64,000 nucleotides of DNA from a virus. The stretch's first letter is position 1. Each line of letters starts with the position of its first letter. A model generated the notes under the pieces. That model was not told the origin of the DNA and searched no databases. It saw only the letters and a list, made by a program, of their open reading frames with translations. The DNA is taken from the IMG/VR virus record IMGVR_UViG_3300046004_000591, positions 85,448 through 149,447 of that record; one strand, 5' to 3'. Position numbers and translations under genes: made by a program. Of this stretch, positions 3,084-55,455 are shown piece by piece.

Positions 3084-3131
3084 GGAGTATCCTTTTGTTA
3101 TTATATTATTTATTTGTTTAATAATACAATT

Positions 3132-3207
3132 TATCATTATTTTATTATGTATGACAGGAAACTCTACAGGATATAATGAATCGTCCTTAAATCAGCAAAT
3201 TTCCATG
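3132..3207 (+). repeat. U leader element, copy 2 (5'-truncated)
   Basis: The 3' half of the U element is present (CTCTACAGGATATAATGAAT), while the left arm of the closing stem is lost. It is followed by the context GGATTAAATG and the six-codon frame MLTSKM, which is also seen after other copies. Confidence 0.6.
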
Positions 3208-28708: not shown

Positions 28709-30070
28709 ATGGTTCAAATTATTGTAGCAAAAGAAAAACTTGATTGTGAACATTTACTGGGAACATTCATTGATGATTCATTTTATGATGTTTTAATTGA
28801 ATCAGATGCGGACGTTTATACTCCACCAGTCTGTGACCTATCAACAAAACTTGATTGTGTATCTGAATGTCATTCATGCGATAAAGGTATTGATGAATTC
28901 AGAGTTGCGTTCAAGTTTCGTAAGAACTTCTTCACAAAAGAAGAACAAGACATGGCATTAGAAGGATTGAAAGATGCTGCCACTATTTCAAACAATAGAG
29001 GAACTGCTGCTGGTAAATATACAGAACGCGATAAATCGAACAACAAAGATGCCAAACGTAATTATGTATCTGATTACCAACGTTCAATCTTTGATTACTT
29101 CATGAATCCGTTAGATTCATTATATGATGACGATACATTATCTGAATTACGGAAACGTAAAGATGATACCACTGTAACAAAGGGTGTCGTCTGGGTTCTG
29201 TATGGTGAGGAAATGTTTGATTTTGAATCATGGGTGGATTCATTATCAAAGATGAGTAGAGAAGATGCTCAAGCAGAAGCTATCCGAATCCATAAGAAAC
29301 ATGTATCTGGAACGTCAATGGCGGTTCCTGCCATGAGTGGAGTTTGTGGGTGGTGGAGTAGATATCCTCGTCAACCTTATGGTAGAGCTACTGCTTATAC
29401 AGACCATCATTTTGATAAATTTAAAAAATGTTACCCATTTATCCAGTCATTAAATCGAGGATTCAGAGATTTAATGCCAAGAAGATGGCAATTACAAAAA
29501 GATGCCACAGATAAAATCGATCCAGCATTTTTGATTCCCGAAACAGTGTTCACCACTCTAACTGTAAATAACACGTGGGTTACGGGTTGCCACTTCGATG
29601 CAGCCAATTTACAGGATGCTATTTCTAATTTGTTGGTATTATCTAACAATGATAATTACTCTGGTGGGTATCTAGTATTCCCTGAATATAGAATTGCTGT
29701 TAATGTAAGACCAGGAGATTTGTTAATTGTCGATAATAGTAAAATCATGCATGGTAATACAAAAATTATCAAAAATGAACCAGATGCACATAGAGTAAGC
29801 GTCATCTCATATTTTAGACATGGATTGTTAGAATGTGGTTCTAAAGAATATGAAGACCATAGAAAACAATTTGTTGAAAATTCTAAACATGATAAAACAA
29901 ATCCAAAATGGCATGAATTCTTTAATGGGGTTTATCCTCATATGTTTGACTCAAAAGAATGGTATGATTTCTTATTGATTCACGATAAAGGACAACAATG
30001 GTTAGATGAATATCATCAAGATTTAAAAGACAAATTCGAATCAGTTTCATTAGAAGATCTAATGGGATAA
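28709..30070 (+). CDS. TET/JBP-like Fe(II)/2-oxoglutarate dioxygenase, copy 1
   Basis: 453 residues. A Cys-rich N-terminus (CDLSTKLDCVSECHSCDKG) and the segment DAATISNNRGTAAG precede the oxygenase core. Iron ligands H295 and D297 (GCHFDAANL) and H348 (MHGN), with R362 for 2-oxoglutarate, fit the double-stranded beta-helix core of TET/JBP enzymes. These hydroxylate the 5-methyl group of 5-methylcytosine or thymine in DNA. A paralogue lies at 32566. Which base it oxidises is unknown. Confidence 0.72.
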   Translation: MVQIIVAKEKLDCEHLLGTFIDDSFYDVLIESDADVYTPPVCDLSTKLDCVSECHSCDKGIDEFRVAFKFRKNFFTKEEQDMALEGLKDAATISNNRGTAAGKYTERDKSNNKDAKRNYVSDYQRSIFDYFMNPLDSLYDDDTLSELRKRKDDTTVTKGVVWVLYGEEMFDFESWVDSLSKMSREDAQAEAIRIHKKHVSGTSMAVPAMSGVCGWWSRYPRQPYGRATAYTDHHFDKFKKCYPFIQSLNRGFRDLMPRRWQLQKDATDKIDPAFLIPETVFTTLTVNNTWVTGCHFDAANLQDAISNLLVLSNNDNYSGGYLVFPEYRIAVNVRPGDLLIVDNSKIMHGNTKIIKNEPDAHRVSVISYFRHGLLECGSKEYEDHRKQFVENSKHDKTNPKWHEFFNGVYPHMFDSKEWYDFLLIHDKGQQWLDEYHQDLKDKFESVSLEDLMG

Positions 30071-30080
30071 TAATATACAC

Positions 30081-30111
30081 ATGGAGATAGGTCAATTCTA
30101 TCTCCATTTTT
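30081..30111 (+). terminator. Rho-independent terminator
   Basis: ATGGAGATAG and CTATCTCCAT form a perfect 10-bp stem followed by TTTTTCAATT. Confidence 0.85.
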
Positions 30112-30126
30112 CAATTATTACTAAAC

Positions 30127-31044
30127 ATGAACAACAATACATTTATAGAACATTTACACACCAAACCGCACAATATACATTATCTGAATAGATACATAAA
30201 ATTTATTACATCTTTACAAGGAAAGAATCACCCTAAGATGAAACATACAGACAAACATCATATTTTACCTAGAGGTAGTGATATGTTTCCTGAATTTGAA
30301 TGTTTTACATTATTTCCTTGGAATAGAATAATTTTAACAAAACGTCAACATTATGTTGCCCATTGGATATTAAAGAAATCGTTTCCTACTTTACATAAAT
30401 TGTGTAGAGTATACCAAAAAGGAATCACAAGTAGACAATATTCTGAATTGTCTATTTTCAAAAATATAGAACATTCTAAAAATTTAAAATCCAAATCAGA
30501 AGAAGAAAAATTAAGGATTAAGAATCAAATTGCTGACACTATTTCCAAACGAACGCAAGAAGAACAAAATGCAATTAGTGAGAAAATTAGAATCAGTCAA
30601 AGTTACATAAAAGATTTAAGATCTGAACTTGTTACAGAATGGCATGTTAATATGTCATCTGAAGAACGAGATAGAATGAACAAGAAAATGTTGGAAACCA
30701 AATCATTCTTAGACACGATTGAACCGAAATTTGTTTGTATTCATTGTTCTGAAGAATTTGTGTATTCTAATAAAGGTAATTATGTTAGATACCATGGAGA
30801 TAATTGTAAACAGAATCCAGATAGAAACGTAAAGAAACATTTTTGTAATGTTTGTGGATTTGAATCTGAAAATAAAACGATTATAACAAAATATCATAAT
30901 GATAATTGTAAACAAAATCCTGATAGAAATCCAAATAGAACGCCTGATGTAATGCATTATTGTAAAGATTGTTCATTTAAAACAAACAGTCTATCCCATG
31001 TAACTAGACATATTAAATCAACAAACCATACTTTTATTACATAA
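30127..31044 (+). CDS. HNH homing endonuclease with zinc fingers
   Basis: 305 residues. HHILPRGSD...NRIILTKRQHYVAHWIL is the HNH nuclease core of phage homing endonucleases. A charged helical middle and three Cys-rich fingers follow (CIHCSEEF, CNVCGFES, CKDCSFKT...H); the linker CKQNPDRN recurs and resembles CKQHPNYN in the GIY-YIG endonuclease at 16746. It separates the two dioxygenase paralogues, as a mobile gene inserted between them would. Confidence 0.8.
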   Translation: MNNNTFIEHLHTKPHNIHYLNRYIKFITSLQGKNHPKMKHTDKHHILPRGSDMFPEFECFTLFPWNRIILTKRQHYVAHWILKKSFPTLHKLCRVYQKGITSRQYSELSIFKNIEHSKNLKSKSEEEKLRIKNQIADTISKRTQEEQNAISEKIRISQSYIKDLRSELVTEWHVNMSSEERDRMNKKMLETKSFLDTIEPKFVCIHCSEEFVYSNKGNYVRYHGDNCKQNPDRNVKKHFCNVCGFESENKTIITKYHNDNCKQNPDRNPNRTPDVMHYCKDCSFKTNSLSHVTRHIKSTNHTFIT

Positions 31045-31049
31045 GATTC

Positions 31050-31077
31050 TTTCTTATTTCGTTTTATAAAGTATAAT
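31050..31077 (+). promoter_or_regulatory. Promoter
   Basis: TTTCTT (31050-31055), a 16-bp spacer and TATAAT (31072-31077) followed by AGA. Confidence 0.75.
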
Positions 31078-31107
31078 AGAAATATGTTAATTTTAAGAGT
31101 ATAAGAA

Positions 31108-31644
31108 ATGCAAGATGAATTACATTGTGAAGATTGTTATGGTATTATATCTAAAAAGGGCGTTGATTCTAGATACCAAAATGAATTTAAATGCGGGAAA
31201 TGTAATAGAATGTATCGAGATAATTGTATTGTAACGGAATTCTCCGATTGTAGAGATATTAACATTATGATTGATGCATATTCAGAAGATTGGAAACATA
31301 ATTCAACACCATATGAAAAATGGCAAAAATTAACACAATTTGGATACGTTAATTGTACAGAACACCCCGATTTTCATGACCATCGATCAGGAACAGTAAA
31401 ATACAGAAGAATTAAAGAATTACCAAAAATAAACGTAAATGGTTGGTTTGTTGAAGACGGTCAAAGAGATGGATTTAGAGAAGGGTCTATTTTCTATATA
31501 GCAAACATGAATCCTAATTTTTATACGACGTTGAAGTATGAACATTCATCATTGTTTTATATTGAAAATGGATTAGCGTATCCAACCAGAGAACAAGCCA
31601 TCAAAAGAAGTAAAGCATCAATGAATTTAGACCCAACAAAATAA
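31108..31644 (+). CDS. Hypothetical protein with zinc-ribbon start, paralogue of 21148
   Basis: 178 residues. The N-terminus has CEDC...CGKC, a likely zinc ribbon. The C-terminal domain is shared with the protein at 21148 (VNGWFVEDGQR; REQAIKRSKASMNLDP). Function unknown. Confidence 0.6.
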   Translation: MQDELHCEDCYGIISKKGVDSRYQNEFKCGKCNRMYRDNCIVTEFSDCRDINIMIDAYSEDWKHNSTPYEKWQKLTQFGYVNCTEHPDFHDHRSGTVKYRRIKELPKINVNGWFVEDGQRDGFREGSIFYIANMNPNFYTTLKYEHSSLFYIENGLAYPTREQAIKRSKASMNLDPTK

Positions 31645-31656
31645 CAGGAGAACCAA

Positions 31657-32385
31657 ATGATTATTATTAACACAACCAAACAATCGGATTACATTTTAAA
31701 CATGAAAGATACATCAACCAATCAACAAGTTAATGTTCCTGTAAATTTGATTAAAGAAGAATTAGAACGTATTGAATTATTTGAAGAAATTCATAATTGT
31801 TTGAATGATAATGGATATTCTGATACTGATATTAGAGATTTTGTAAATCATTACAACGGAACAATCGATAAACCAATTTATCCTGGATTGTTAAATTATG
31901 AATTCAAAAACGATTGGGCAGTTTGTGCTGCCATGGATGAAGACGGCGAATTGTTTGAATTTGAAACGGCACCAACGCGCAAAGAAAGATATTGGGATAA
32001 TGGTAGAAACGGTCAATACGAGTATATTAAAACATTCTTTGATATTGGGAACGAATTATATAATTATTCAACTATTATTTTCAGAACTAATGTAAATAAA
32101 GATGTCATCACATACAATGATTTCATTACTGGTAACGTATGGAATAAGAATTGTTCCGAAGATATGCAGTATTTTTCTATTGATTTGGTTGGTATCAATT
32201 TAATACCAGAGGGAATGTTCTACAGATTTAAACCTATTATGGAAGACAGAGATGAAACAGAAATGTGGGGTGAAGGTATCAATGATAATTCATACGAATC
32301 AATATCTTTAGACGATAAATTGTATGACGCTATCCAGTCTGGTGAAATTGATTGGAAACAAACTTTGATTAAACGGAAACAATAA
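31657..32385 (+). CDS. Hypothetical protein
   Basis: 242 residues, acidic, no family recognised. CAGGAG upstream. It sits between the two dioxygenases and before a terminator, but nothing ties it to modification chemistry. Confidence 0.6.
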   Translation: MIIINTTKQSDYILNMKDTSTNQQVNVPVNLIKEELERIELFEEIHNCLNDNGYSDTDIRDFVNHYNGTIDKPIYPGLLNYEFKNDWAVCAAMDEDGELFEFETAPTRKERYWDNGRNGQYEYIKTFFDIGNELYNYSTIIFRTNVNKDVITYNDFITGNVWNKNCSEDMQYFSIDLVGINLIPEGMFYRFKPIMEDRDETEMWGEGINDNSYESISLDDKLYDAIQSGEIDWKQTLIKRKQ

Positions 32386-32445
32386 TGAATATCGAAAATG
32401 ACATTCCACTGTAAATTATACATGGACAATTAGTTGGTGATAAAC

Positions 32446-32484
32446 ATGGAGTTCAGATATTATTCTGAACTCCATTAGATTTGT
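32446..32484 (+). terminator. Terminator-like hairpin
   Basis: ATGGAGTTCAGA and TCTGAACTCCAT form a perfect 12-bp stem. The T-run behind it is weak (TAGATTTGTG). Confidence 0.65.
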
Positions 32485-32510
32485 GTATTATATGTAATGT
32501 ATTAAGAAGA

Positions 32511-32539
32511 TTTCTATTTTAAACATTATAGAGTATAAT
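32511..32539 (+). promoter_or_regulatory. Promoter of the second dioxygenase
   Basis: TTTCTA (32511-32516), a 17-bp spacer and TATAAT (32534-32539). The second dioxygenase therefore has its own promoter. Confidence 0.7.
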
Positions 32540-32565
32540 GTAATTTTAAACAAAAGGGCAAACAT

Positions 32566-33936
32566 ATGGCAAGAATTATTGTAGCAAAAGAAAAACATAA
32601 CGTAGACCACCTATTGGGTCATGGTGCAGATAGATCTCATTATGATATTTTAATTGGACCTGGGGGAGATATCGACGAAGACGTTGATGTATACATGGAA
32701 CCATTATGCGATTTATCAACCAAAGCAACTTGTGTATCTGAATGTAATTCATGCGATAAAGGTTCTGATGAACGGCGTATCGCATTTAAATATCGTAAAG
32801 GATTTTTCACTATTGAAGAACACGATGGAGCGTACGGCGGATTAAGAGATGCTGCTGTATTATCTAACAATCGCGGACTTGCTGCTGGTATGTTAGAAGA
32901 AATAACAGATAATGAACGACGCGAACGATTCACTAAACGTCAACATGATATTTTAGAATACTTTATTGATAGAACAAGTACATTAGACGGTTCGGATCCA
33001 TTAGAACAACTCAAACAACAAGATAATTCATCTAACAACGGTTTAAGAACTTCTGTATGGTTGACTAATAAAACTCCAGACAATTTTAAATTTGATGAAT
33101 TGGTTTCAGAATTAGAATCCATGGACCAAGAAGATGCCAAAGAACGAGCATTATTTGTAATGAAAAATTGGGTGTCTAATACAGTTTATGCTGCTCCAGC
33201 ATATTCTGGTATTGCTGGATGGTATTCAAGATACCCACGAATCCCTTATGGTAGAGCAACCGGATACACCGACCATCATTTTGATAAATTCAAATTATCA
33301 TTTCCATTTTTCAAACGTTTGAATGGAGGATTCAAGGAATTATTACCTTGGAGATGGGGTAACCAGAGAGCAGCTGCCGACAAAATGGATCCAGCATTTT
33401 TGATTCCCGAAACCGTATTTACAACAGTGACTGTAAATAAATCGTTTCGTACGCATTATCATTTTGATGCCGGTGATTTGACATCAGGGTTCTCAAATCT
33501 ATTGGTGTTATCTAAAAATGAGAATTATGAAGGTTGTTATCTAGTGTTTCCTGCATATAGAATTGCAGTTAACATTAGACCAAGAGATTTATGTTTAATC
33601 AATAATCATGAAATTTTACATGGAAACACTGAATTCATTCAAACCGAAGAAGGTGGTGAACGTATTTCTGTTATTGCTTATTTCAGAGAAGACATGTTGG
33701 GTCTGGGTTCAAAGGAATATGAAGATTATAGACGTTTGTTTGTTGACACCAGACGTAAAGATGAGACGCATCCATTATGGCGCCCACTTTGGAACGGCGT
33801 TTTCCAAAAAATGTGGACATCGAAAGAATGGTACGATTTCTTATTAGAACATGAGAAAGGGCAACAATGGATTGATGAATATCATCAAGACCTTAAAGAT
33901 GAATTTGAATCTACATCATTGGATGAATTCTTTTAA
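32566..33936 (+). CDS. TET/JBP-like Fe(II)/2-oxoglutarate dioxygenase, copy 2
   Basis: 456 residues and collinear with the protein at 28709: MARIIVAKEKH, CDLSTKATCVSECNSCDKG, DAAVLSNNRGLAAG, then H299 and D301 (YHFDAGD), H352 (LHGN) and R366. All iron and 2-oxoglutarate residues are kept, so both copies look active. Differences concentrate in the middle (about 110-200), which may set substrate or sequence preference. Confidence 0.72.
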   Translation: MARIIVAKEKHNVDHLLGHGADRSHYDILIGPGGDIDEDVDVYMEPLCDLSTKATCVSECNSCDKGSDERRIAFKYRKGFFTIEEHDGAYGGLRDAAVLSNNRGLAAGMLEEITDNERRERFTKRQHDILEYFIDRTSTLDGSDPLEQLKQQDNSSNNGLRTSVWLTNKTPDNFKFDELVSELESMDQEDAKERALFVMKNWVSNTVYAAPAYSGIAGWYSRYPRIPYGRATGYTDHHFDKFKLSFPFFKRLNGGFKELLPWRWGNQRAAADKMDPAFLIPETVFTTVTVNKSFRTHYHFDAGDLTSGFSNLLVLSKNENYEGCYLVFPAYRIAVNIRPRDLCLINNHEILHGNTEFIQTEEGGERISVIAYFREDMLGLGSKEYEDYRRLFVDTRRKDETHPLWRPLWNGVFQKMWTSKEWYDFLLEHEKGQQWIDEYHQDLKDEFESTSLDEFF

Positions 33937-33942
33937 ATAAGA

Positions 33943-33976
33943 TTGGAGAGACCTTAACGGGTTTCTCCATTTTTCG
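33943..33976 (+). terminator. Rho-independent terminator
   Basis: TTGGAGAGACC pairs with GGGTTTCTCCA, followed by TTTTTCG. Confidence 0.75.
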
Positions 33977-34066
33977 TTTTACTGGAGATATAACAGCGAA
34001 CGCAAATATATTATTAAATAGATTTCTAAATGAAGATTAAACCAAATAAGATAAAGGAAAAAAATA

Positions 34067-35272
34067 ATGAGTTTATTTGATTATGAATTAGAAGAATCGA
34101 ATTATAAAGATTGGAGATTACCTGAAAATAGAATGGAATTGTTTAGAAGGTATACAAACGTTTTAATGTTAGAAGGAGATATAGATCATTGGCACCATGG
34201 TAAAGTTATCGCTTCCGAAATGAATTTAACAGATAAACAAAAACTTTTTTATTGCTTAATTTTTGGTCAATCTTATCGGAGTCATTGGCCAATGATAATT
34301 CTACAGAAGTTTCCTAATTTTTTAGAAACTTCTGTAGAAGAAATAAACGAATTCGTTGAAAATAATTCGAAAAGATGTTTCTACGCGACTGATACTTTGA
34401 AATGTTATAGGAATTTTGTCGGATTATTTAAAGATTTAAAAGAACGATACGAAAACATTGACATAATCGAACATTTTGAAAAATTAACCAAAACTGGAAA
34501 TCCTATAACTAATTTCAATAATTTAACCGAAGAATTACAAAGTTTACATGGATACGGTAGAATGGGGGTTTGGTTAACGAAACAAATGATGTATGAGTTT
34601 TTCGATTATGATATAGATATACCGGAATTACAGTTGGAAAACCAAAATAGTTGGTCGCAATGGAATGCTCTTTGTTGGGTTTTAAATAAAGAAGAATGGC
34701 AAATAATTAAAAAAACAAAAAATACGGACATAAATAGATTATTATTTTTCGAAGAAAAGGTTAAAGAAATATATCATTATTGTAACGATAATTCTATAAT
34801 CCATATCGATATTTATAATTTAGAAACTTGTTTATGTCAATTAAGAAAAACGATAAAACATAATCCTTTATTCTACCAATTGTACGTAAATACCAATAAA
34901 ATCGCAGAATTATACGATAAATTATATTATTCTTGGGAAGGTGAAATAAATTTTAAACCTTTCGTAATCGCTATGAATACGAAAGGTAAATTTGCGAAAG
35001 AATTCGCAAAAACAAAAAAAGAATATTCTAGTGCATTATATGATAAAGGATTGAATTTTGACACCCACACTTATTACAAAGACGAACCAAACTCCAGAGA
35101 AATAATGGGGTTTAATTTAGAAAAATCAATTGGAGGAAAATTGTGCGTTTCCCATTATAATGAATGGTTTGACGAAAAAGAAAGAATAGAATTCGAAACA
35201 AAATATAATCCTAGAAATATGTTAAAATTTACGGGTAACGAAGATAAAAATATTTCTTTGTACGAGTTATAG
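34067..35272 (+). CDS. Helical protein of the 5-hmdU kinase / thymine pyrophosphorylase-like group
   Basis: 401 residues. LHGYGRMGVWLTKQMMYEFF followed by SWSQWNALCWV, and later NLETCLCQLRKT, resemble the HhH-glycosylase-like helical domain of the alpha-glutamyl/putrescinyl-thymine pyrophosphorylase group (5-hmdU DNA kinase helical domain). ET..C..RKT is shared with the protein at 41854. In phages with hypermodified thymine such proteins act on 5-hydroxymethyl-dU in DNA. Its place right behind the two oxygenases supports this. The assignment rests on motif memory and needs a profile search. Confidence 0.5.
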   Translation: MSLFDYELEESNYKDWRLPENRMELFRRYTNVLMLEGDIDHWHHGKVIASEMNLTDKQKLFYCLIFGQSYRSHWPMIILQKFPNFLETSVEEINEFVENNSKRCFYATDTLKCYRNFVGLFKDLKERYENIDIIEHFEKLTKTGNPITNFNNLTEELQSLHGYGRMGVWLTKQMMYEFFDYDIDIPELQLENQNSWSQWNALCWVLNKEEWQIIKKTKNTDINRLLFFEEKVKEIYHYCNDNSIIHIDIYNLETCLCQLRKTIKHNPLFYQLYVNTNKIAELYDKLYYSWEGEINFKPFVIAMNTKGKFAKEFAKTKKEYSSALYDKGLNFDTHTYYKDEPNSREIMGFNLEKSIGGKLCVSHYNEWFDEKERIEFETKYNPRNMLKFTGNEDKNISLYEL

Positions 35273-35279
35273 AAATCTC

Positions 35280-35307
35280 TTTCGATGATTAAGATAACCA
35301 CTATAAT
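35280..35307 (+). promoter_or_regulatory. Promoter with leader hairpin
   Basis: TTTCGA (35280-35285), a 16-bp spacer and TATAAT (35302-35307). The transcript would start within a hairpin (35311-35336: GTTCA/TGAAC, TTGG/CCAA) almost identical to the one at 7246-7271. Confidence 0.8.
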
Positions 35308-35368
35308 AGAGTTCAAGTTGGAAGAATCCAATGAACTTTAAACAAACTATATTATAAGGCGGATTATC

Positions 35369-36037
35369 ATGTCAAACGTTGAAAACAAAACTGAAAGAAG
35401 AAACACAGTTGAATTATACACTTCAATCTTGCGTTATGTTTGGGACAATTCAACTAAAGAAGTTCCTTTCATCACTAAACCAATGGTTCTTGAAACAAAC
35501 TATTTGTTGGGGAGAACTTCACCACCTAAATGCGCAAATCAATGGTTCAAAGATAATCGTGCTGATGTTGGAATGTACAAATTGCCTGAAATCGTTGTTG
35601 ATTTGACTGACATTATTAATGGTTCTAGATTAAGAACCACCGTTAAAAAACCAACTGACGTAAAAACTGTTGATGTTAAACAAGTTCAATTTCAAAAAGG
35701 TATTCAAATTTTGAAAGATTTGGTTGATGAAACCAACAGAGAAGGTGATGACGATATTGAAGAAGAAATCATTGATACCGAAATTGTTGAGGAAGACGAA
35801 GAAGAACAAAAATTCTCAAACATTTTAATCCAGTTGTATAAATCTATTGATTCGGAATCAACTATTAAAACCGTGTTTGAAAATGGCGAATCATTGATTG
35901 TTCCAAGAGAAATTGCTCAAGCTGGTGTTGATTTATTGACTTCTGAAGATTACAAAACTGAACATAGATTGACATTCCAAACATATAGTGGTCAATCTTA
36001 CAATAATTTGTTGGAACTTATTGAACAAAACAAATAA
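35369..36037 (+). CDS. Member of a three-gene paralogous family
   Basis: 222 residues. The N-terminal part (CANQWFKDNRADVGMYKLPEI) and the C-terminal part (YKTEHRLTFQTYSGQSYNNL) match those of the proteins at 37219 and 40204; a long acidic insert (EEEIIDTEIVEEDEEEQ) distinguishes this copy. No known domain recognised. Placement behind a strong promoter suggests high expression, and the role may be regulatory, but that is inference. Confidence 0.6.
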   Translation: MSNVENKTERRNTVELYTSILRYVWDNSTKEVPFITKPMVLETNYLLGRTSPPKCANQWFKDNRADVGMYKLPEIVVDLTDIINGSRLRTTVKKPTDVKTVDVKQVQFQKGIQILKDLVDETNREGDDDIEEEIIDTEIVEEDEEEQKFSNILIQLYKSIDSESTIKTVFENGESLIVPREIAQAGVDLLTSEDYKTEHRLTFQTYSGQSYNNLLELIEQNK

Positions 36038-36048
36038 TTGTTAATACG

Positions 36049-36087
36049 ATCCTAATCGGCTGAAAAGTTGATTAGGATTTTTTTATG
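36049..36087 (+). terminator. Rho-independent terminator
   Basis: ATCCTAATC pairs with GATTAGGAT, followed by seven Ts. Confidence 0.85.
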
Positions 36088-36118
36088 CGTAAAGGTTTAT
36101 TATTCCTATTGTATTATG

Positions 36119-36210
36119 GACATTATTTGTCCATAGTTGACGATTATTGATATTGTCAATCAACTCTACAGGATATAATGGAAACGTTGTTTAAACGACA
36201 AATAAGATGG
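36119..36210 (+). repeat. U leader element, copy 7 (leader of the 36216 gene)
   Basis: TTATTTGTC and GACAAATAA close the element. CTCTACAGGATATAATG is conserved. The start codon lies six bases past the 3' end, again without a Shine-Dalgarno sequence. Confidence 0.65.
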
Positions 36211-36215
36211 ATTAA

Positions 36216-36521
36216 ATGATGGATATGATAATGTACAGAGCGATGTGTTTGAAGGAATATGAAAATTCAAAAGATAGATTGGATTTTACCAAGAGATTCA
36301 AATGGTTCAGTCCAAACATTGACTTCATATTAAAACGAGTAACTGACGGTAATTTTAACAATTCAAACTTGGTTGATGGTCGATATGATATTATCTGTAA
36401 ATTTAAGATTGTATCAGGATCGGAGAATTTCGTTAGATTAAATGTCAATGAATATATGTTGGATAGACGTAAATCAAATAATGTTAAGATTGAATCTATC
36501 GAAGTTATTCATCGAAACTGA
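36216..36521 (+). CDS. Hypothetical protein inside regulatory unit V
   Basis: 101 residues, basic, no family recognised. Its start context GGATTAAATG is the same as that of the six-codon frames in units I-III, suggesting those are deletion remnants of a similar gene. The last codons overlap two ATCGAA words. Confidence 0.55.
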   Translation: MMDMIMYRAMCLKEYENSKDRLDFTKRFKWFSPNIDFILKRVTDGNFNNSNLVDGRYDIICKFKIVSGSENFVRLNVNEYMLDRRKSNNVKIESIEVIHRN

Positions 36522-36610
36522 TTATATCATGTATCGAAAGGAACATCGAATACGTCTTAAGATTGACTGGATATCGAATAAATATGATTATTACAGAGTC
36601 TAATTACTCC

Positions 36611-36639
36611 TTTCGAAATGATAAAAAATACAGTATACT
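36611..36639 (+). promoter_or_regulatory. Promoter of unit V
   Basis: TTTCGA, 17 bp, TATACT, followed by AGACTATGTCGACG as in the other units. Confidence 0.75.
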
Positions 36640-36865
36640 AGACTATGTCGACGTTTCAGTTAGTGTATCTATTGTTTTTCTATATTCTTTTATATTACTA
36701 TTAGATTCTTTATAGAGTATATTAATGTCTTTATCGAATATATTCTATACAATAATTCAACATAAAATCTCTGAGTCTCAGATCCCGATAAGAATGAACA
36801 ATTCTGTCGGGATTTTTATTGTTTGAAATTTACAATATATCAATTCTATGTTGAATCATTAACAT

Positions 36866-37200
36866 CCATTATTTGTCCAATAATCCGCTCTAATGGAATC
36901 TTTCCTTATTATGTCAATCAACTCTACAGGATACATTTAATACATCTTAAAACAACAATATAGACTGTTAAATTAAACATTAACATCGAAACAATTATAA
37001 TCACGTATCGAAAGAGACCAAGGTTATCGAATGTGTAATAATCAACGTCTAATTACTCCTTTCGAAATCGATAAAAACCCAGTATACTAGACTATGTCGA
37101 CGGTTTGAGTTAGTTCTATTGTTTCATTTTAATATTCTTTTATTATTTTCTATATTACTTCAAGACTCTTTTTCGATTATATCTAATACATTATACTAAC
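36866..37200 (+). repeat. Regulatory unit VI with U element copy 8
   Basis: The U element (36866-36966) keeps CCGCTCTAATGG and CTCTACAGGAT. ATCGAA iterons lie at 36985, 37007 (22 bp apart) and 37026. The promoter TTTCGA 37060-37065 / TATACT 37083-37088 leads without a terminator into the gene at 37219 through a leader of about 125 nt. Confidence 0.7.
37060..37088 (+). promoter_or_regulatory. Promoter of unit VI, driving the 37219 gene
   Basis: TTTCGA, 17 bp, TATACT, followed by AGACTATGTCGACGG. Confidence 0.75.
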
Positions 37201-37218
37201 AATTAAACAAATACAATA

Positions 37219-37719
37219 ATGAAAGAATTATCACTTAATCAATACCTATCTCTAATCTCATCAATTTACTTCTTATCAGATACGCAGAATTCAGGCGGTA
37301 TCCCAGAGTATTTCTTCCAAGAAACAAATGAATATCTTAACATCCCATCACCCAAAGGAATCAAACAATGGATGAAAGAAAATACTCGTTCAAAAGGATT
37401 CTATGAAATCCCCAAGATCGAAGAAGATGTTGATATTTTTGTTCAACAATACCTTAATCTGAAGAAACAACCAAAACCATTAGAACCTATTATCATCCAA
37501 TGTAATAAAGCAATTCGATATAATAATGAAATCAAATTTACAGATGGAACCTCCAAGAAGATCGACAAACGTACATTAAAAGAATTATATTCAATCTTAA
37601 CGGATGAATACATCAAACCAGAAAATAGGTTTGAATTACAGAATTACGTCTCCGAAAATTATAACAATCTATTGAAAGTGGTTGAATTAAACAGAGAAAT
37701 GATGAAAGGAGAAAAATGA
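37219..37719 (+). CDS. Member of the three-gene paralogous family
   Basis: 166 residues. GIKQWMKENTRSKGFYEIPKI, IKFTDGTSKKIDKRT and IKPENRFELQNYVSENYNNL match the protein at 40204 in order and, more loosely, that at 35369. Its direct position behind regulatory unit VI makes it a candidate factor connected to the repeats. No ribosome site is obvious. Confidence 0.6.
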   Translation: MKELSLNQYLSLISSIYFLSDTQNSGGIPEYFFQETNEYLNIPSPKGIKQWMKENTRSKGFYEIPKIEEDVDIFVQQYLNLKKQPKPLEPIIIQCNKAIRYNNEIKFTDGTSKKIDKRTLKELYSILTDEYIKPENRFELQNYVSENYNNLLKVVELNREMMKGEK

Positions 37720-38402
37720 ACATAAAAATTACAAAAGAACAATTTGATATATTGAAACAATATACAATTTCTAGATATACGTTTGGATCCCATTTACATA
37801 AAACCAATACAGAACAATCGGACAAGGATATTGTTTTAATACTCGACGATATTTTCAATTCAGATAGAATTTATCCAAACATCCATTGTTTTCAATTTGA
37901 TGACATCGAAAATAACACTCAATGGATGTTGACAACTGAATCTACGTTTTACAAAAATTTATTATCTGGTGAATCTAACATTTTTGCTGAATTGGTGTTA
38001 TTCACAGACATAACGAATTCGGATAAATTATTAACATGTAGAACGTACAAAATTATAAAAGGATTCGTCGGTAGAGCTAAATTTGATTTGAAATTATTGA
38101 ATACAAGTAAAGATAAAAAGAATCGAAAATCATTTCATATTTCAAGATGTCTTTACGTTGCTGAATGTCTATTGGAGGGTAGATTACCAGAATTAAATGA
38201 TATTGGACGTTATCAGAAATTGAGTAAAGATGAATTACAAAGTAAGGAACTCCAATTAAGAACTAAATGTAATTCAATGTATGAAAATAATGAATTGACG
38301 ATGTATCCTATTCTGAATGTAGACAATAAGTTTCCAGACATACATGAAATAGAAGAATTGTTGATGAACGCAAATAATATAAAGGAATTCAAATATGATT
38401 AA
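37716..38402 (+). CDS. Nucleotidyltransferase-like protein
   Basis: 228 residues. TFGSHLHKTNTEQSDKDIVLIL is the GS...SDxD signature of the pol-beta nucleotidyltransferase fold found in a family of phage and bacterial predicted transferases. The helical C-terminal half would bind substrate. Target unknown (nucleotide, RNA end or protein). ATGA overlap with the upstream gene. Confidence 0.7.
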   Translation: MNIKITKEQFDILKQYTISRYTFGSHLHKTNTEQSDKDIVLILDDIFNSDRIYPNIHCFQFDDIENNTQWMLTTESTFYKNLLSGESNIFAELVLFTDITNSDKLLTCRTYKIIKGFVGRAKFDLKLLNTSKDKKNRKSFHISRCLYVAECLLEGRLPELNDIGRYQKLSKDELQSKELQLRTKCNSMYENNELTMYPILNVDNKFPDIHEIEELLMNANNIKEFKYD

Positions 38403-38493
38403 GAGAATTATAAATGGAGTATTGTTTGTATCTTGCTGGGTTGTAACATCTATATTGATTTACATAATCGGCTCGATAGCAATGATTCATTAA
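38395..38493 (+). CDS. 32-residue membrane peptide
   Basis: MIKRIINGVLFVSCWVVTSI starts a single transmembrane helix ending IAMIH. AAAGGA upstream and overlap with the previous gene support it. Confidence 0.55.
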   Translation: MIKRIINGVLFVSCWVVTSILIYIIGSIAMIH

Positions 38494-38496
38494 TAA

Positions 38497-38533
38497 AAAT
38501 GGGATAGAACTTTACATTCTATCCCATTTCTTT
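38497..38533. terminator. Bidirectional terminator
   Basis: AAATGGGATAGA and TCTATCCCATTT form a perfect stem with T-rich tails on both strands. It separates the plus-strand operon from the convergent metacaspase gene. Confidence 0.85.
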
Positions 38534-39257
38534 AGAACATTGATTCTGTCCTTTGTTTATCTGTACAAGTTAAGACTGGTCGTTGTTCATATCCATTCTT
38601 AATCATGTAATCCGTAATATTCTTAAACATTATTTCTCTGTTACCAGAAGCAGTCAAAAATGCTGTGGTAAATGCTCCCCTGTATTTCCCGTCGATGAAC
38701 GAGTCAGCTGCCGTCTGATTATCGGTGCATCCGCTCCAACAGATTACATTATCATTAGATACTCCGAATGGAATATTCTTAGATGAATTTATAACAGGAG
38801 ATTGTATGAATCTAGGAGTAATGGATGTTGGTTTAATATCTCTAGTTGCGGTTCCTGAATGGCAACAATCAAGAATAACTTCTATATGAATATCAGGAAA
38901 CTCTGAGAACAATTGTTGTATTTCATCATCTGTGATATAATTGGATGTCCATGAACCGTCTGAATTGATTAAATCGAATGGACATAGGATTTCAGTCAAT
39001 CCATCTTCTTCCGAACCATTTGAACATGGGATCTGTGAACCGTGTCCAGAATAATGTAAAATGAATTTTGTTTTGGATTCAGACAATAATTGATGCATCT
39101 TTTCAATAATGTTTGATTTGGTTGCTTGTTCGTCTAACAACCTCGATACATCAAATCCCCTTTCAATCAATTCTGTTGTTAAATCATTAGAATCTGTTAT
39201 ACAACCTCTCAGAGGTGCTACGTTGTATTTGTTGATACCAATAGATAATGCTTTCAT
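38532..39257 (-). CDS. Metacaspase-like (caspase-fold) cysteine protease
   Basis: 241 residues. KALSIGINKYNVAPLRGCITD is the first strand region of metacaspases; HYSGHGSQ gives the catalytic histidine H72 and DCCHSGTA the catalytic cysteine C132. The large and small subunit regions are both present, with no pro-domain. Such proteases are common in bacteria, sometimes in defence systems, and rare in phages. It is a stand-alone minus-strand gene with a good ribosome site (AAGGAGAG) and its own promoter. Role unknown: processing of phage or host proteins, or counter-defence. Confidence 0.85.
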   Translation of the reverse strand: MKALSIGINKYNVAPLRGCITDSNDLTTELIERGFDVSRLLDEQATKSNIIEKMHQLLSESKTKFILHYSGHGSQIPCSNGSEEDGLTEILCPFDLINSDGSWTSNYITDDEIQQLFSEFPDIHIEVILDCCHSGTATRDIKPTSITPRFIQSPVINSSKNIPFGVSNDNVICWSGCTDNQTAADSFIDGKYRGAFTTAFLTASGNREIMFKNITDYMIKNGYEQRPVLTCTDKQRTESMF

Positions 39258-39271
39258 TGTTTCTCTCCTTA

Positions 39272-39299
39272 TTTAATATGTTATTATTTAAAGTTTCGA
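39272..39299 (-). promoter_or_regulatory. Divergent promoter of the metacaspase gene
   Basis: On the minus strand TTCGAA, 16 bp, then TATTAA. The palindromic TTTCGAA is shared with the plus-strand promoter below. Confidence 0.5.
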
Positions 39300-39321
39300 A
39301 GATCGTTTAAAGTAGTATAAT
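39294..39321 (+). promoter_or_regulatory. Promoter of the 39347 operon
   Basis: TTTCGA (39294-39299), a 16-bp spacer and TATAAT (39316-39321) followed by AGA; AGGAGG precedes the gene. Confidence 0.8.
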
Positions 39322-39346
39322 AGAACTTACTTTAATAGGAGGAATT

Positions 39347-39583
39347 ATGAAATTACATAAGATTGAACCAATTACAAATAGATTCTCAGAGAAATATGAA
39401 TCTGATGTAAAGAATGGTATTAAGGTTGTCATTTTGAAAACAATTTATTCTAAGTATAAAATTGGTATACAAGATGTATCTTCACCATCGCTTAGTGAAA
39501 TGTTATACGCAACAAATGATTTTGAACATGCAATCGACAAAGCGACGGAGATAGCTAAAAAACGAGGAATGATACATGAGTAA
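39347..39583 (+). CDS. Hypothetical protein
   Basis: 78 residues, small beta-alpha protein (KIGIQDVSSPSLSEMLYATN), no family recognised. AGGAGG upstream. Confidence 0.55.
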   Translation: MKLHKIEPITNRFSEKYESDVKNGIKVVILKTIYSKYKIGIQDVSSPSLSEMLYATNDFEHAIDKATEIAKKRGMIHE

Positions 39584-39935
39584 TTTTTCTGGTATTAATT
39601 TCAATTATGAATCTGGGTTCAATGAAGAACATAGAAACATTCTTTTTGATTTTTGGGATGAGAACGGTTCTGATGAATTACAATTAGAAATGACCATTGA
39701 TGGTGTAACTGGATTCATCCATAATTATAAAGCATCCAGAAAAGATTTGATTTTAGATTACAAACATAATATGATAATCTTTTCATTCATCAAACATCTA
39801 ATGAAAAACTTTGGACGATATAAAATATCATTAAACTTAGATTCTGATTTGGAATTACAAGGCGAATATGATGTATTGATACAATTTAACTTGGAGGAAA
39901 ACAATGACAAAGAACGTTGCCAAATTAATCACTAA
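39576..39935 (+). CDS. Hypothetical protein
   Basis: 119 residues, acidic, beta-rich N-terminal half and helix in the middle. Its plan (beta segment, FIKHLMKNFGRYK helix, strand) resembles the next gene loosely (FLIHIQNRLHEYK), so they may be old duplicates. Confidence 0.55.
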   Translation: MSNFSGINFNYESGFNEEHRNILFDFWDENGSDELQLEMTIDGVTGFIHNYKASRKDLILDYKHNMIIFSFIKHLMKNFGRYKISLNLDSDLELQGEYDVLIQFNLEENNDKERCQINH

Positions 39936-40194
39936 TGTTGAACACTCATCTGGAATTAGAGATTTATTATTCCAAATACAAGATGACGTATTGGTATCAA
40001 TCTCATATTTGGTTAATACAAACAAAATTGGCAAATACGAAGTGTTTTCGATAAAACAAGGATATCTATCAATATATGATAACAAAGTTGTATTACAATT
40101 TTTGATTCATATACAAAATAGATTACATGAATACAAAGACATTATTGTATCCGATTCAATTTCATCTGATTTAGAACTTACTTTTACAATTTAG
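39904..40194 (+). CDS. Hypothetical protein
   Basis: 96 residues, overlapping the previous gene by 32 bases, with TTGGAGG before the start. Possible distant duplicate of its neighbour. No family recognised. Confidence 0.55.
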   Translation: MTKNVAKLITNVEHSSGIRDLLFQIQDDVLVSISYLVNTNKIGKYEVFSIKQGYLSIYDNKVVLQFLIHIQNRLHEYKDIIVSDSISSDLELTFTI

Positions 40195-40203
40195 GAGATT
40201 ACC

Positions 40204-40680
40204 ATGGACAAAAATACATTCTTATCAATCGTCACTACATTTTACTACAAATCTGATTCTAAATTTGACCATGGATTACATGAAGAAGTTTTTGAACATG
40301 TATCTTCTCTATTGGGGTTATCTGAAATTCCAGCATCCGTTAAAACATGGATGAGTGAAAATAAAATTGCCAAAGATTATTATAAAGTTCCTCCTGTAAC
40401 AAAAAACGTAGACGAAGAAGTTGAAATGATTTGTGGTAATGAACTTGTATTCGATAACATCATCTCTCAATTAAGAAATTGTACCAATAAAAATCATAAA
40501 GTGTTCTTCAAAGACGGGACATCAAGACGAGTTGACACTAGATCCGCCGGTGTTGCTATCAGAGCATTACGTTCAAATAAAATCAAACCAGAAACGAGAA
40601 TGAAATTTCAAGAATTCTGTAAAGAATCATTTGGTAATCTAATGAAATTTGTGTCAACAGCTAAATCAATGGGATTATAA
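40204..40680 (+). CDS. Member of the three-gene paralogous family
   Basis: 158 residues. SVKTWMSENKIAKDYYKVPPV, VFFKDGTSRRVDTRSA and IKPETRMKFQEFCKESFGNL match the protein at 37219. AGGAG upstream. Function unknown. Confidence 0.6.
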   Translation: MDKNTFLSIVTTFYYKSDSKFDHGLHEEVFEHVSSLLGLSEIPASVKTWMSENKIAKDYYKVPPVTKNVDEEVEMICGNELVFDNIISQLRNCTNKNHKVFFKDGTSRRVDTRSAGVAIRALRSNKIKPETRMKFQEFCKESFGNLMKFVSTAKSMGL

Positions 40681-40681
40681 T

Positions 40682-41191
40682 ATGAAATCACCTAGAGGGC
40701 ATAATACAATTAAAGAATTGAATCCAGCATTAGCTGAATATGCTGATATAAAACGTATTGAATTGAATACAAAACATCTGTTTCCAGTTGATGTAATCAA
40801 AATTGCCAATAAAATTGGTAATCTACAATGTTTTCATAATGGAGAATTTGGGTATGAATTACAGACGTTGGTTTCAATTGGTCCAAATTCAAACCCAATT
40901 TTCATTGTAAATGATTACGCCAAATCGATCCTTATCTTACGGGAATTAGTTGCCAGATGTATTGGTGAATATCTAATTCATACGGATGTTCCTGAAATTG
41001 AATATGGATCGTATCAAAAATACATCTTCGACGAATTAAATGAAGCAGATGAATTTGCGTATCATTTTTTGATGCCGGAAGATGAAGTTAAAAATAAAAT
41101 TATAGAAGGATATTCTGCGACAGATCTTGCCGATTACTTTTGGGTATCGGTTCATTTTGTCAGAGAAAGATTAGACCAATTAGGATTATAA
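40682..41191 (+). CDS. ImmA/IrrE-like protein, apparently inactive
   Basis: 169 residues. The C-terminal half (EADEFAYHFLMPEDEV, then SATDLADYFWVSVHFVRERL) is typical of ImmA/IrrE metallopeptidases. The expected HExxH zinc site is replaced by RELVAR, so the metal-binding histidines are gone. It may act as a binding-only regulator or decoy. The start at 40682 overlaps nothing; a start at 40649 would overlap the upstream gene. Confidence 0.65.
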   Translation: MKSPRGHNTIKELNPALAEYADIKRIELNTKHLFPVDVIKIANKIGNLQCFHNGEFGYELQTLVSIGPNSNPIFIVNDYAKSILILRELVARCIGEYLIHTDVPEIEYGSYQKYIFDELNEADEFAYHFLMPEDEVKNKIIEGYSATDLADYFWVSVHFVRERLDQLGL

Positions 41192-41197
41192 CAAAAT

Positions 41198-41407
41198 ATG
41201 TTTGAATTACAATATGCAACTGGTAGTAAAATTGAATCATCATTTCACGAGAACATTATTGACGCAATCAACGATGCTGATTGGATGATTCATTCTGATG
41301 AAAATGTTGAACCTATTTCCATTCATGAAATCATTAGAACAGAACTATGGAATCATGAATCGAATACAATTTCTGAATTATATACATTAAGTGATAATTA
41401 TGACTGA
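41198..41407 (+). CDS. Hypothetical small protein
   Basis: 69 residues, acidic, no family recognised. Overlaps the RNase H start by eight bases. Confidence 0.5.
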
Positions 41408-41861
41408 ACAAGTGATAATCTATGCGGATGGAGCTTGTAAATCCAACGGTAAAGATAATTCAAATGGTGGATGGGGAGCTATCCTTTCATTCAAGGGTGT
41501 TGAGAAGGAAATCTGTGGTGGAGAACGTAATACAACCAATAACAGAATGGAATTAATGGCTGTTATCAATGCGTTAGAATTGTTAAAACGACCATGTCCC
41601 GTTAAATTATGTTGTGATTCTAAATATGTATTAGATGGAGCATCATCTTGGATGAAAGGTTGGAAACAAAATGGTTGGAAGACTGCTTCTAAACAACCCG
41701 TTAAAAATGAGGATCTATGGAGGAGATTAGATGAAGCAATGAATTTACATGATATTGAATTTGTATGGATTAAAGGACATGTTGGTCATCCAGGAAACGA
41801 GAAGGCGGATTCTCTGGCAAATAAAGGATATTACCAGATGATTAGTGAATCCAATGAATAA
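41400..41861 (+). CDS. rnhA: Ribonuclease HI
   Basis: 153 residues, normal length. [28 protein letters not shown] and [15 protein letters not shown] provide the D-E-D-D catalytic set and the flexible-loop histidine; [18 protein letters not shown] is the basic handle region. It would remove RNA primers and RNA-DNA hybrids during phage replication. Confidence 0.95.
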
Positions 41862-42762
41862 TCTATTTGATGATGTCTATATATTATTAGATGAATTCAG
41901 GAAGTTTTCATTTCAACATATTGCTCTGGGTGAAGTGGATCCCATCTATACAATGATTAGAAATTCTGAATTATCGGACACTGAGAAGAAACGGTTAATC
42001 TTCTCTAATCTAATGGTATATGATTTAAAACATTCCATTAAATTATGTTCTATACCAGACGATGAATACTATGATTATGTGAGAATGTTGTTCAAGGAAG
42101 CAAAAGTTGGTAAAGACAGAATTGATGTAGCTTCAAGAGAAACAAATGTTAAATCAAGAAGTTATAACACTCAGATAGATAAAATGAGGATTAAAACTCC
42201 TGAACAATGGATTGATAATGTATTAGAACATACTGTTGATTGGAAGACATCACTTGAATCCGCTAAGATGATTCCTACGTTTGGTGAATACTTTGCGTTC
42301 AAAGTTGCTGATATGGTTGAATCTATATTTGACATGAATTACAAACCAGTCTGGTCGGATGATTTCAAGAAGACTATACCAAAGGGTTCATTATCGGGAT
42401 TTGAATTGGTTAGAACAGGATCGTCTATCTCCAAACGTTCATCGGAACAGATTAGACAAGATCCTCTGTTAGATGAATTGTTCTTATCGGAATTGGAATT
42501 CTTCAAAGAATATAAATGTCCTCATAATCCAAATAGATGTATTGGCGTCACTGAAATTGAGACATTCTTTTGCGATTATAGGAAGACATTTAAAGGGACA
42601 TTAAACAAAGGTGATAAAGTTCTTAAATTAAGAGCTGCATTAGAGTATAATAATGATTCTCTGATAGCAGAGAAATTGAAAGGTTCAGTTGATAATCTAT
42701 TGAGTAATAGATTAAAATTGATTGACATGAATATAACAGAATTAGATTGCGAGAAAATATAA
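41854..42762 (+). CDS. 5-hmdU kinase helical-domain / thymine pyrophosphorylase-like protein
   Basis: 302 residues. [20 protein letters not shown] and later [18 protein letters not shown], followed by a GDK motif, match the helical alpha-glutamyl/putrescinyl-thymine pyrophosphorylase (HMUDK helical) group known from phages with hypermodified thymine. It overlaps a P-loop kinase gene by one base, the pairing expected for 5-hydroxymethyl-dU DNA phosphorylation and subsequent substitution. The ATG at 41854 is used instead of a GTG at 41845. Confidence 0.6.
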
Positions 42763-43307
42763 TGAGAAAAGTTATTGCTGTATGTGGGGTTCCAGGAACT
42801 GGTAAATCTACTCTGTTCAGAGAATTCATGAAATCGTCCACTTGGGAAAGAACACAACCTGCCAAATTAGTGGATTCTGAATACTCTAAAGATTTAGATT
42901 TGTATATCTTAGGGAAATATGATGAAGGTGAGACGTTTCCTGGAACAGATAAGTTGAGTCTGGCTGTTCAACCAGAATTTGTTAAATGGTTCAAGGTCAC
43001 AGAATCAAACATTTTGATGGAAGGTGATAGATTAACAAATATGAATCTATATGAATTGATGTCAGAACAACCTGATATTGAATTTCATATCGTTGTCTTA
43101 AAATGTAAACAAGATTTGTTGAAACAACGATATGCGGATAGAGGATCTAATCAATCTGACCAATTCTTGAACGGTAGAGAAACGAAAATCTCAAATATCC
43201 AAAACAATTTTTCATTAGCTGAATATATCACAGAATTCAAAAATGAGACAAAAGAAGAACAATCTAAAATCTTAGATTTTATCAATTCAATTCTTTCGGA
43301 AAAATAA
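42762..43307 (+). CDS. P-loop kinase, candidate 5-hydroxymethyl-dU DNA kinase
   Basis: 181 residues. GVPGTGKSTLFREF is the Walker A; GKYDEGETFPGTDKLSLAVQP, ILMEGDRLTN and LNGRETKISNI follow the wording I recall for phage P-loop kinases linked to base hypermodification. TAATG overlap with the helical partner indicates co-expression. A nucleoside or polynucleotide kinase role is the alternative. Confidence 0.6.
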   Translation: MRKVIAVCGVPGTGKSTLFREFMKSSTWERTQPAKLVDSEYSKDLDLYILGKYDEGETFPGTDKLSLAVQPEFVKWFKVTESNILMEGDRLTNMNLYELMSEQPDIEFHIVVLKCKQDLLKQRYADRGSNQSDQFLNGRETKISNIQNNFSLAEYITEFKNETKEEQSKILDFINSILSEK

Positions 43308-54873: not shown

Positions 54874-55455
54874 ATGAAAGTTGAATTGTTATTTGTTACA
54901 CCAAACGCAGAAGAATTCTTAGGTATTGTAGCAGGAGAATGTTATGGTGCCGATATATCAGATCCTGATAAAAATGTAAAACGTGCCAAACATTGTTCAT
55001 CAAAAGGTCATCTTGCGGTATTACGTTTTGCTCATGCTGTCTTCAGAATCTCTGACATCTCAAGAGTCTGTTCTCATCAAATGGTTCGTTCCAAACATCT
55101 TGACTTCCTTCAAAAGAGTCAACGTTACACCAAATCAGATGTATCCGAACTCTTGGAATTAGAAGTTCCGCCATTTTTTGAAACATCTGAAGAAGCATCT
55201 ATTGTATTAAAAGAATCATTAGAACATTCTTATGAACAATATGATAAATTATTATCATTAGGTGCAAAGAAAGAAGACGCTAGAATGGTGCTTCCGAATT
55301 TCTCGCCGACCTCATTAAATGTTGTTGGTAATTTCCAAGCATGGTTGGATTTCATTAAATTGCGCAACACAAAAGAAGCTCAATATGAAATCAGATTAGT
55401 TGCGCAGGAAATTGAACGTCAAATGACAGAAGTTGCTCCAAATCTTTTCAACTAA
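54874..55455 (+). CDS. thyX: ThyX flavin-dependent thymidylate synthase
   Basis: 193 residues. VRSKHLDFLQKSQRY is the ThyX motif in a variant form: the usual RHRx7S appears as RSKx7S. HLAVLRFAHAVFRI and the end (ARMVLPNFSPTSLNVVGNFQ) fit the family. It methylates dUMP to dTMP using reduced folate and FAD. With NrdA/NrdB it feeds phage DNA synthesis. It makes ordinary thymidylate, so any 5-hydroxymethyluracil would have to be made later on DNA. Confidence 0.92.
   Translation: MKVELLFVTPNAEEFLGIVAGECYGADISDPDKNVKRAKHCSSKGHLAVLRFAHAVFRISDISRVCSHQMVRSKHLDFLQKSQRYTKSDVSELLELEVPPFFETSEEASIVLKESLEHSYEQYDKLLSLGAKKEDARMVLPNFSPTSLNVVGNFQAWLDFIKLRNTKEAQYEIRLVAQEIERQMTEVAPNLFN

Follow-up and report, generated by a model that had tools for sequence, protein, structure and literature searches.

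Products of TET/JBP-type dioxygenases were reportedly proposed by Iyer et al. in 2013 as starting points for DNA hypermodification. The phages M6, ViI and PhiW-14 are believed to acquire their hydroxymethyl group at the nucleotide stage, as outlined in a passage of PMC6449724. For Rhodococcus phage Tonitrus, a section of PMC11955845 presents a predicted cassette of ParB, a TET-like J-binding protein, aGPT-Pplase2 and a 5-hydroxymethyluracil (5-hmU) DNA kinase, the last three being regarded as a possible thymidine hypermodification system. Compared by that description, the DNA analysed here has the same three predicted activities, with a TET-like protein in place of the hydroxymethylase. It is a 64-kb window, the whole stretch examined, forming the right part (positions 85,448–149,447) of the 149,447-base virus record IMGVR_UViG_3300046004_000591, and it encodes two TET/JBP-type dioxygenases (TET1 and TET2), two proteins of or like the amino acid:DNA transferase (ADDT) family (ADDT1 and ADDT2) and a P-loop kinase (Table 1). 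From gene content and order we consider it probable, with considerable room for doubt, that these enzymes hypermodify DNA after replication, thymine in DNA being oxidised by TET, phosphorylated by the kinase and substituted by ADDT.

A contig of 234,735 bases that derives from this phage (IMGVR_UViG_3300046005_000547; G001) spans nearly the whole 149-kb record at mostly 99–100% identity, with three stretches at 93–97%. As the record crosses both ends of this contig, the phage map is probably circular and about 235 kb long, part of the genome thus being missing from the 149-kb record. The phage is T4-like as judged by eye, and has a sister in a 249-kb contig (G002). No match to the cluster region was obtained by megablast against phages.

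All five open reading frames named in a preliminary description of the window, made from its sequence alone, were confirmed. The two TET/JBP-like dioxygenases among them score 57.8 (TET1) and 73.4 bits (TET2) against the curated Tet_JBP cut-off of 34.9, and are paralogues with 53% identity. H299, D301, H352 and R366 (TET2 numbering) are unchanged in 31 of 31 aligned TETs, both window TETs included; the first three we take to be the HxD...H Fe(II) triad and R366 the 2-oxoglutarate-binding arginine. By these residues, both are TET/JBP dioxygenases with an intact catalytic set. The AlphaFold model of the window TET2 (mean predicted local distance difference test, pLDDT, 82.9) was closest in the PDB to human TET2 (Z 20.1), CMD1 (17.9), NgTET1 (17.4) and CcTet (17.1), the next family being ABH3 (14.1), whereas a sequence search of the PDB gave weak matches only. 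Position 304, presumably a base contact from the TET2/NgTET1 structures, is Asp in TET2 and 28 other TETs (29/31) and Asn solely in TET1 of the window phage and of its sister. It was rejected as a discriminator between thymine and 5-methylcytosine (5mC), because the TET of phage Melnitz-2 keeps Asp while adjoining a C5-cytosine methyltransferase (C5-MTase) gene. Cysteines at TET2 residues 48, 56 and 60 are kept in 30 of the 31 TETs and Cys 63 in all 31, possibly binding a metal in the region that precedes the oxygenase domain; the TETs of phages DLP6 and C48C1 are without them. The label ‘SNF2 DNA repair protein’ given to TET proteins in KU682439.2, KF301602.1 and NC_025422.1 looks like a misannotation.

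The motif that the preliminary description saw in both helical proteins is real: E-T..C..RK is the ADDT signature, and in an alignment of 19 ADDT-like proteins, among them those of the ViI-like phage sal1 and PhiW-14 gp109, one Gly, the Glu and the Cys are invariant and two Asp nearly so. ADDT1 passes the PF18724 cut-off (37.1 against 26.2 bits) and is 25% identical to its homologue in Caulobacter phage Cr30, itself an ADDT at 1.3e-52. ADDT2 carries the signature residues and is 22% identical to gp109 (ADDT 1.1e-10). Five HMUDK_hel proteins end in a related E/Q..C..K motif, which would hint at kinship with ADDT and is suggestive only; profile comparisons among ADDT2, ADDT1 and HMUDK_hel gave E-values of about 1e-3 but a probability of only ∼20% (21% for ADDT2 against ADDT). 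A search of the 149-kb record for HMUDK_hel gave no match and is uninformative, as the controls gave none either. Scans with the single ADDT1 or ADDT2 sequence matched solely the window lineage and its sister. Between these two phages, TET2 is 62%, ADDT2 83% and the kinase 69% identical, whereas the genes in the ADDT1 slot share only 19%. The transferase adjoining TET thus seems, by these identities, to have been swapped, as would be expected of an enzyme selecting the attached group.

The kinase, whose ATG shares one base with the ADDT2 stop codon (TAATG), exceeds the PF18751 cut-off (29.8 against 27 bits) and is 42, 33, 30 and 27% identical to kinases of Cr30, Melnitz, Terij and Stinger, respectively, which lie near or adjoin TET/JBP-type genes. 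It is a P-loop kinase, as the preliminary description called it, but it belongs to Ploopntkinase3 and not to either of Pfam's two 5-hydroxymethyldeoxyuridine (5-hmdU) DNA kinase families: no match to PF18748 (HMUDK_HMUD1) or PF18747 (HMUD2) was found at E-values up to 1, while the PAC9 and ViI-like sal1 kinases do match these families. The label ‘terminase small subunit’ for the kinase in NC_025422.1 looks like another misannotation.

Recurrence of these genes was examined in loci anchored on either end of the cluster. The TET clade comprises at least 576 relatives among 599 matching IMG/VR stretches, and the best 80, which are the nearest relatives and not a random sample, yielded 79 loci of at most ∼21 kb each. 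Loci with at least 7 kb downstream of TET were counted (33, including that of the window phage, with 46 of the 79 left out). A kinase-anchored set of 60 loci was treated likewise, 25 having at least 7 kb upstream and 35 being left out; four of these 25 contigs (L121, which is the window phage, L123, L144 and L176) are common to both sets. As contigs are not independent, they were also de-replicated by clustering at 95%, which left 28 TET clusters and 13 kinase clusters (of the 25 contigs).

An ADDT gene was found in 23 of the 33 TET loci, a glycosyltransferase (GT) of the Cr30/TAGT type in eight, a kinase only in one and none of these in one. All 23 ADDT-bearing phages have the kinase in the same genome, within 7 kb of TET in 21 and farther away in the window phage (L018) and its sister (L019). 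With a 3-kb limit, 50 loci gave 27 with ADDT, 12 with GT, one with kinase only and 10 with none. Every one of the 74 matches to the ADDT1 model and the kinase in the 79 loci lies downstream of TET on the same strand. Among the 46 TET records of at least ∼11.5 kb from the 79, many of them fragments, 25 have ADDT, 25 the kinase (one match weak and partial), 23 both and 19 neither. Co-variation of ADDT and kinase was significant by Fisher's test both for the 33 contigs (p = 2.6e-7) and for the 28 clusters (p = 1.9e-5). In the kinase-anchored control, 24 of 25 loci had TET as well as ADDT upstream of the kinase and on its strand, and all 21 contigs outside the TET set had both genes; the exception is the sister phage, whose TETs lie ∼78 kb away. 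Of 50,697 named phage records, 13 have a TET2-like gene and 32 the kinase, and six have both as opposed to 0.008 if independent, the six being redundant (two of Cr30, four of near-identical Melnitz phages). The enzyme families, the intact TET residues, the kept gene order and the co-occurrence are directly established, and because the module recurs in other phages it is more than chance; on these genomic data a TET–ADDT–kinase module is real and recurrent.

Two TETs in one locus were seen, within the stretches covered of the 79 loci, only in the window lineage and its sister, a count to be read with the span of the loci since a more distant second TET would escape detection. In the 30 TET loci that have both ADDT and the kinase, the stretch from TET to ADDT holds a glutamine-amidotransferase-like gene in 21 (representative GATase_6 1e-10) and acetyltransferase-like (GNAT-like) genes of two kinds in 10 and nine (representatives 6e-7 and, below cut-off, 0.0035). 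Such genes would suit later processing of an amino acid once attached. One neighbouring gene of the relatives was read by eye as amidoligase-like, which Pfam did not confirm.

The nearest TET relatives split into a transferase-plus-kinase branch and a GT branch, and no residue difference between the TETs of the two is fixed at 80% in the 31 aligned. A strict rule of either GT or ADDT was rejected, as Cr30 has ADDT together with a weak TAGT-like gene and in locus L020 a Glycos_transf_1 gene separates TET from ADDT; the split is valid only for the Cr30/TAGT-type GT model in the scanned loci. TET is directly followed by a Cr30-type GT in L041, L056, L058, L069–L073, L078, L081, L087 and L089, with no ADDT or kinase within the stretch covered, and no C5-MTase match was found in L073 and L081, GT-branch records of more than 70 kb. 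In these loci, phages may possibly be equipped to make a glycosylated thymine resembling base J.

In the pathway that we propose, ordinary dTMP (thymidylate) from ThyX would be incorporated into phage DNA, a TET/JBP dioxygenase would hydroxylate the thymine methyl in DNA to 5-hmU, the P-loop kinase would phosphorylate its hydroxyl, and an ADDT would exchange the phosphate for an amino acid or amine as the last step of the shared core; the resulting bulky base would probably shield the DNA from host nucleases. We infer each chemical step, the thymine substrate, the attached group and the division of labour between TET1 and TET2 and between ADDT1 and ADDT2. Gene content, kept order and co-variation support the oxidise–phosphorylate–replace scheme of the preliminary description as one TET-first pathway, although its chemistry stays conditional and its substrate is contested by a C5-MTase. 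The ThyX reported there was found again, as was the lack of a dUMP (deoxyuridylate) hydroxymethylase: no ThyA-family gene was detected in the 149,447-base record, in the 235-kb contig to which this check was extended or in the sister contig, with nine of 14 control genomes matching, and none in the 46 TET records or in the 60 kinase loci (up to 10 kb on each side). The refuting find that the description had named, such an enzyme in the rest of the genome, therefore did not turn up.

Several observations weigh against this pathway. ADDT2 falls just below the family cut-off (24.2 against 26.2 bits), hence ‘ADDT-like’, and its structure model (pLDDT 42.8) was set aside. We found no proven activity for any Ploopntkinase3 protein. 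The two halves of the module lie 6.6 kb apart in the window phage and ∼76 kb apart in its sister, and no GATase-like, acetyltransferase-like or other tailoring gene was recognised in the cluster of the window lineage. Cr30 carries a ThyA gene, annotated as thymidylate synthase and adjoining nrdA. The window phage itself encodes a C5-MTase, 44 kb from the kinase in the 235-kb contig, and in its sister such a gene, likewise with PC, ENV and QxRxR motifs, lies 7 kb from ADDT2 and the kinase. Where a GT takes the place of ADDT, it belonged in the single locus examined (L041) to TAGT, a family described and named from 5mC-based systems. Finally, the gene row of Melnitz-2 (DNA polymerase, C5-MTase, TET, an unassigned protein, kinase) indicates that the Ploopntkinase3 family can occur in a cytosine setting.

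Much of this bears on the most serious alternative, which we hold unlikely without dismissing it, namely a chain on cytosine in which the C5-MTase makes 5mC, TET converts it to 5-hydroxymethylcytosine and kinase and ADDT act on that product. As a C5-MTase with intact motifs is encoded, 5mC is a live rival substrate in the window phage; in Melnitz-2 the methyltransferase gene directly adjoins TET, near the kinase, and activity of phage TETs on 5mC has been reported (Burke 2021, as cited in a passage of PMC12730594). The 149-kb record gave no C5-MTase match although the phage has the gene; absence from fragments is therefore weak evidence, and the argument that the record excludes 5mC was rejected. 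Against the cytosine chain, a C5-MTase was found in only two of the 46 TET records (two of 16 when those of 40 kb or more are counted) and in none of 28 kinase-anchored records (none of 13 in that size range, four being 146–171 kb), one record (G009) being common to both sets, and Cr30 likewise gave no match, so that thymine would be the substrate that most of these phages can supply by themselves. C48C1 and DLP6, whose genomes were deposited as complete, carry this TET without a match to C5-MTase or ThyA, although they gave none to ADDT or the kinase either; DLP6 DNA is listed in a table of PMC8228603 as restriction resistant. The methyltransferase of the window phage shares 57% identity with those of Flavobacterium and Bacteroides phages. 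The 13 records of the TET search include none of the 15 methyltransferase records among the matches listed (there being 269 further), so the gene may be an independent anti-restriction gene. Elsewhere, the ADDT and 5-hmdU kinase families go with 5-hmdU. Taken together, thymine appears clearly favoured over 5mC as the substrate.

Two parallel branches, with one TET/ADDT pair on thymine, TET1 (with its Asn at position 304) and ADDT2 on phage-made 5mC and one kinase shared, would be in keeping with the extra TET, which within the stretches covered is confined to the lineage with C5-MTase; this involves only two related phages, and the Asp304 kept by the Melnitz-2 TET beside its C5-MTase weighs against such a scheme, which we regard as improbable. 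Slightly less probable still is that an enzyme of the host, or one that escaped recognition, makes the hydroxymethyl group on the nucleotide before incorporation and that the TETs serve another purpose: this would conform to what is thought of M6, ViI and PhiW-14 (PMC6449724, in the passage above), and Cr30 does combine TET, ADDT and kinase with a ThyA gene, but the lack of a ThyA-family gene in the window phage and the TET records and the fixed order, TET ahead of ADDT and kinase, speak against it. It is equally improbable that the enzymes act on RNA (e.g. tRNA or phage transcripts), proteins or small molecules, for although kinase and ADDT2 match named families only weakly and one PHROG weakly matched by both TETs carries the name queuine tRNA-ribosyltransferase, perhaps a misname, the TET2 model is closest to DNA-acting TETs and ADDT has relatives in the hypermodified-DNA phages PhiW-14 and ViI-like.

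Table 1. Features of the cluster and other genes; positions refer to the window unless another locus or contig is named, and match values are E-values.
Feature	Position	Strand	Description	Match
TET1	28709..30070	+	453 amino acids, TET/JBP-type 2-oxoglutarate/Fe(II) dioxygenase	Tet_JBP 1e-15; PHROG 24024 5e-129
TET2	32566..33936	+	456 amino acids, TET/JBP-type dioxygenase	Tet_JBP 1.6e-20
ADDT1	34067..35272	+	401 amino acids, amino acid:DNA transferase family	ADDT PF18724 3.6e-9
ADDT2	41854..42762	+	∼302 amino acids, helical, alternative GTG start 41845	ADDT 3.2e-5, below cut-off
P-loop kinase	42762..43307	+	181 amino acids, Ploopntkinase3	PF18751 5.2e-7; AAA_18 7.9e-9
ThyX	54874..55455	+	flavin-dependent thymidylate synthase, predicted ordinary dTMP supply	PF02511 6.3e-42
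C5-cytosine methyltransferase	in the other 84 kb of G001		PC, ENV and QxRxR motifs intact	PF00145 8e-45
Homing-endonuclease-like gene	30127-31044		between TET1 and TET2	phrog_655 1e-16
Caspase-family protease	38532-39257	-	HYSGHGS and DCCHSG motifs	Peptidase_C14 1.5e-26
Caspase-like frame of sister G002	L109 18016-18744
Three apparent paralogues	35369-36037; 37219-37719; 40204-40680		paralogy by eye	37219 without Pfam match
Large protein	258-3137	-	PARP catalytic-domain match near end	3e-5, weak, below cut-off
NAD-salvage-like set	L005 1815-2669, 4701-6179; window 48513-49058, 23424-24113		PRPP (phosphoribosyl pyrophosphate) synthetase-like; NAMPT/NAPRTase; Sir2-family; NMNAT-like by eye	8e-15; 1e-38; 3e-40; no Pfam match
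Terminase large subunit and UvsW-like helicase	L001 9375-11354, 17899-19647		names by eye, seemingly intein-bearing
N6/N4-type DNA methyltransferase	L004 2743-3327, 3481-3888		seemingly split in two frames	first piece 1.5e-10

Other genes of the phage were noted in passing. A caspase-family protease and three apparent paralogues lie within the cluster, and a set of NAD-salvage-like genes may form an NAD-rebuilding anti-defence set (Table 1).

If the proposed pathway is true, these phages would gain an amino-acid-decorated thymine without replacing the thymidine triphosphate (dTTP) pool, replicating with normal thymine and converting it later. Cr30, a cultured relative with host CB15, has TET, ADDT, a weak TAGT-like GT, a gene annotated as inositol-1-phosphate synthase and the kinase, all within 9 kb, and this whole cassette would make thymine hydroxylation by a phage TET directly testable. 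Being large and branching, the TET clade may therefore supply a wide range of enzymes that modify DNA, along with modified bases that may interfere with sequencing, restriction and CRISPR.

Compared with the canonical 5-hmdU pathway of the M6/ViI type, the window phage is alike in its P-loop kinase and helical transferase (ADDT or HMUDK_hel), and the same later steps would be expected; it differs in having a TET, no ThyA-type gene found, and a kinase of Ploopntkinase3 instead of HMUDK_HMUD1/HMUD2. Other combinations occur: in SirVictor the kinase stands together with HMUDK_hel and a gene for thymidylate synthase, and PAC9, a Yuavirus presumably akin to M6, has a different kinase family with HMUDK_hel and thymidylate synthase. 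Phage systems of TET, C5-MTase and TET-associated GT, reportedly described by Burke 2021, oxidise in DNA first, as predicted here, and such a GT follows the same TET clade in eight of the 33 loci. The window phage shares with them the C5-MTase, on its 235-kb contig, and differs by its kinase and ADDT, the C5-MTase being missing in most relatives searched; a one-sequence model of the Cr30 GT had no match in the 64-kb window, other GT types not having been searched there. Oxidation of thymine in DNA is known for the kinetoplastid JBP1/JBP2 of base J and is predicted here for phage enzymes, whose product would be expected to be phosphorylated and then substituted by an amine, not glucosylated. 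In Mycobacterium phage Stinger and Microbacterium phage Terij (gp1–gp3), ParB is followed by a TET/JBP-like gene and then by a kinase of the same Ploopntkinase3 family; these are small phages with the genes by terminase, no ADDT annotated in the stretch examined and a TET below the Pfam cut-off. The contrast drawn in the preliminary description with the studied 5-hmdU phages stands as far as a TET is present and no ThyA-type gene was found, but the TET-first order is not new as an idea, having been published for Tonitrus (PMC11955845, in the section cited), and we found no chemical test of it in the open-access literature. The window phage departs from Tonitrus in its size of ∼235 kb, its T4-like character, its two TETs and its two ADDT-like proteins. 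As far as we found, what the genomic comparison would add is twofold: a recurrent TET–ADDT–kinase module, with a GT as the alternative, across Cr30/DLP6-like phages and contigs of IMG/VR; and a lineage of 235 kb that has its TETs and its ADDT-like proteins in pairs as well as a C5-MTase.

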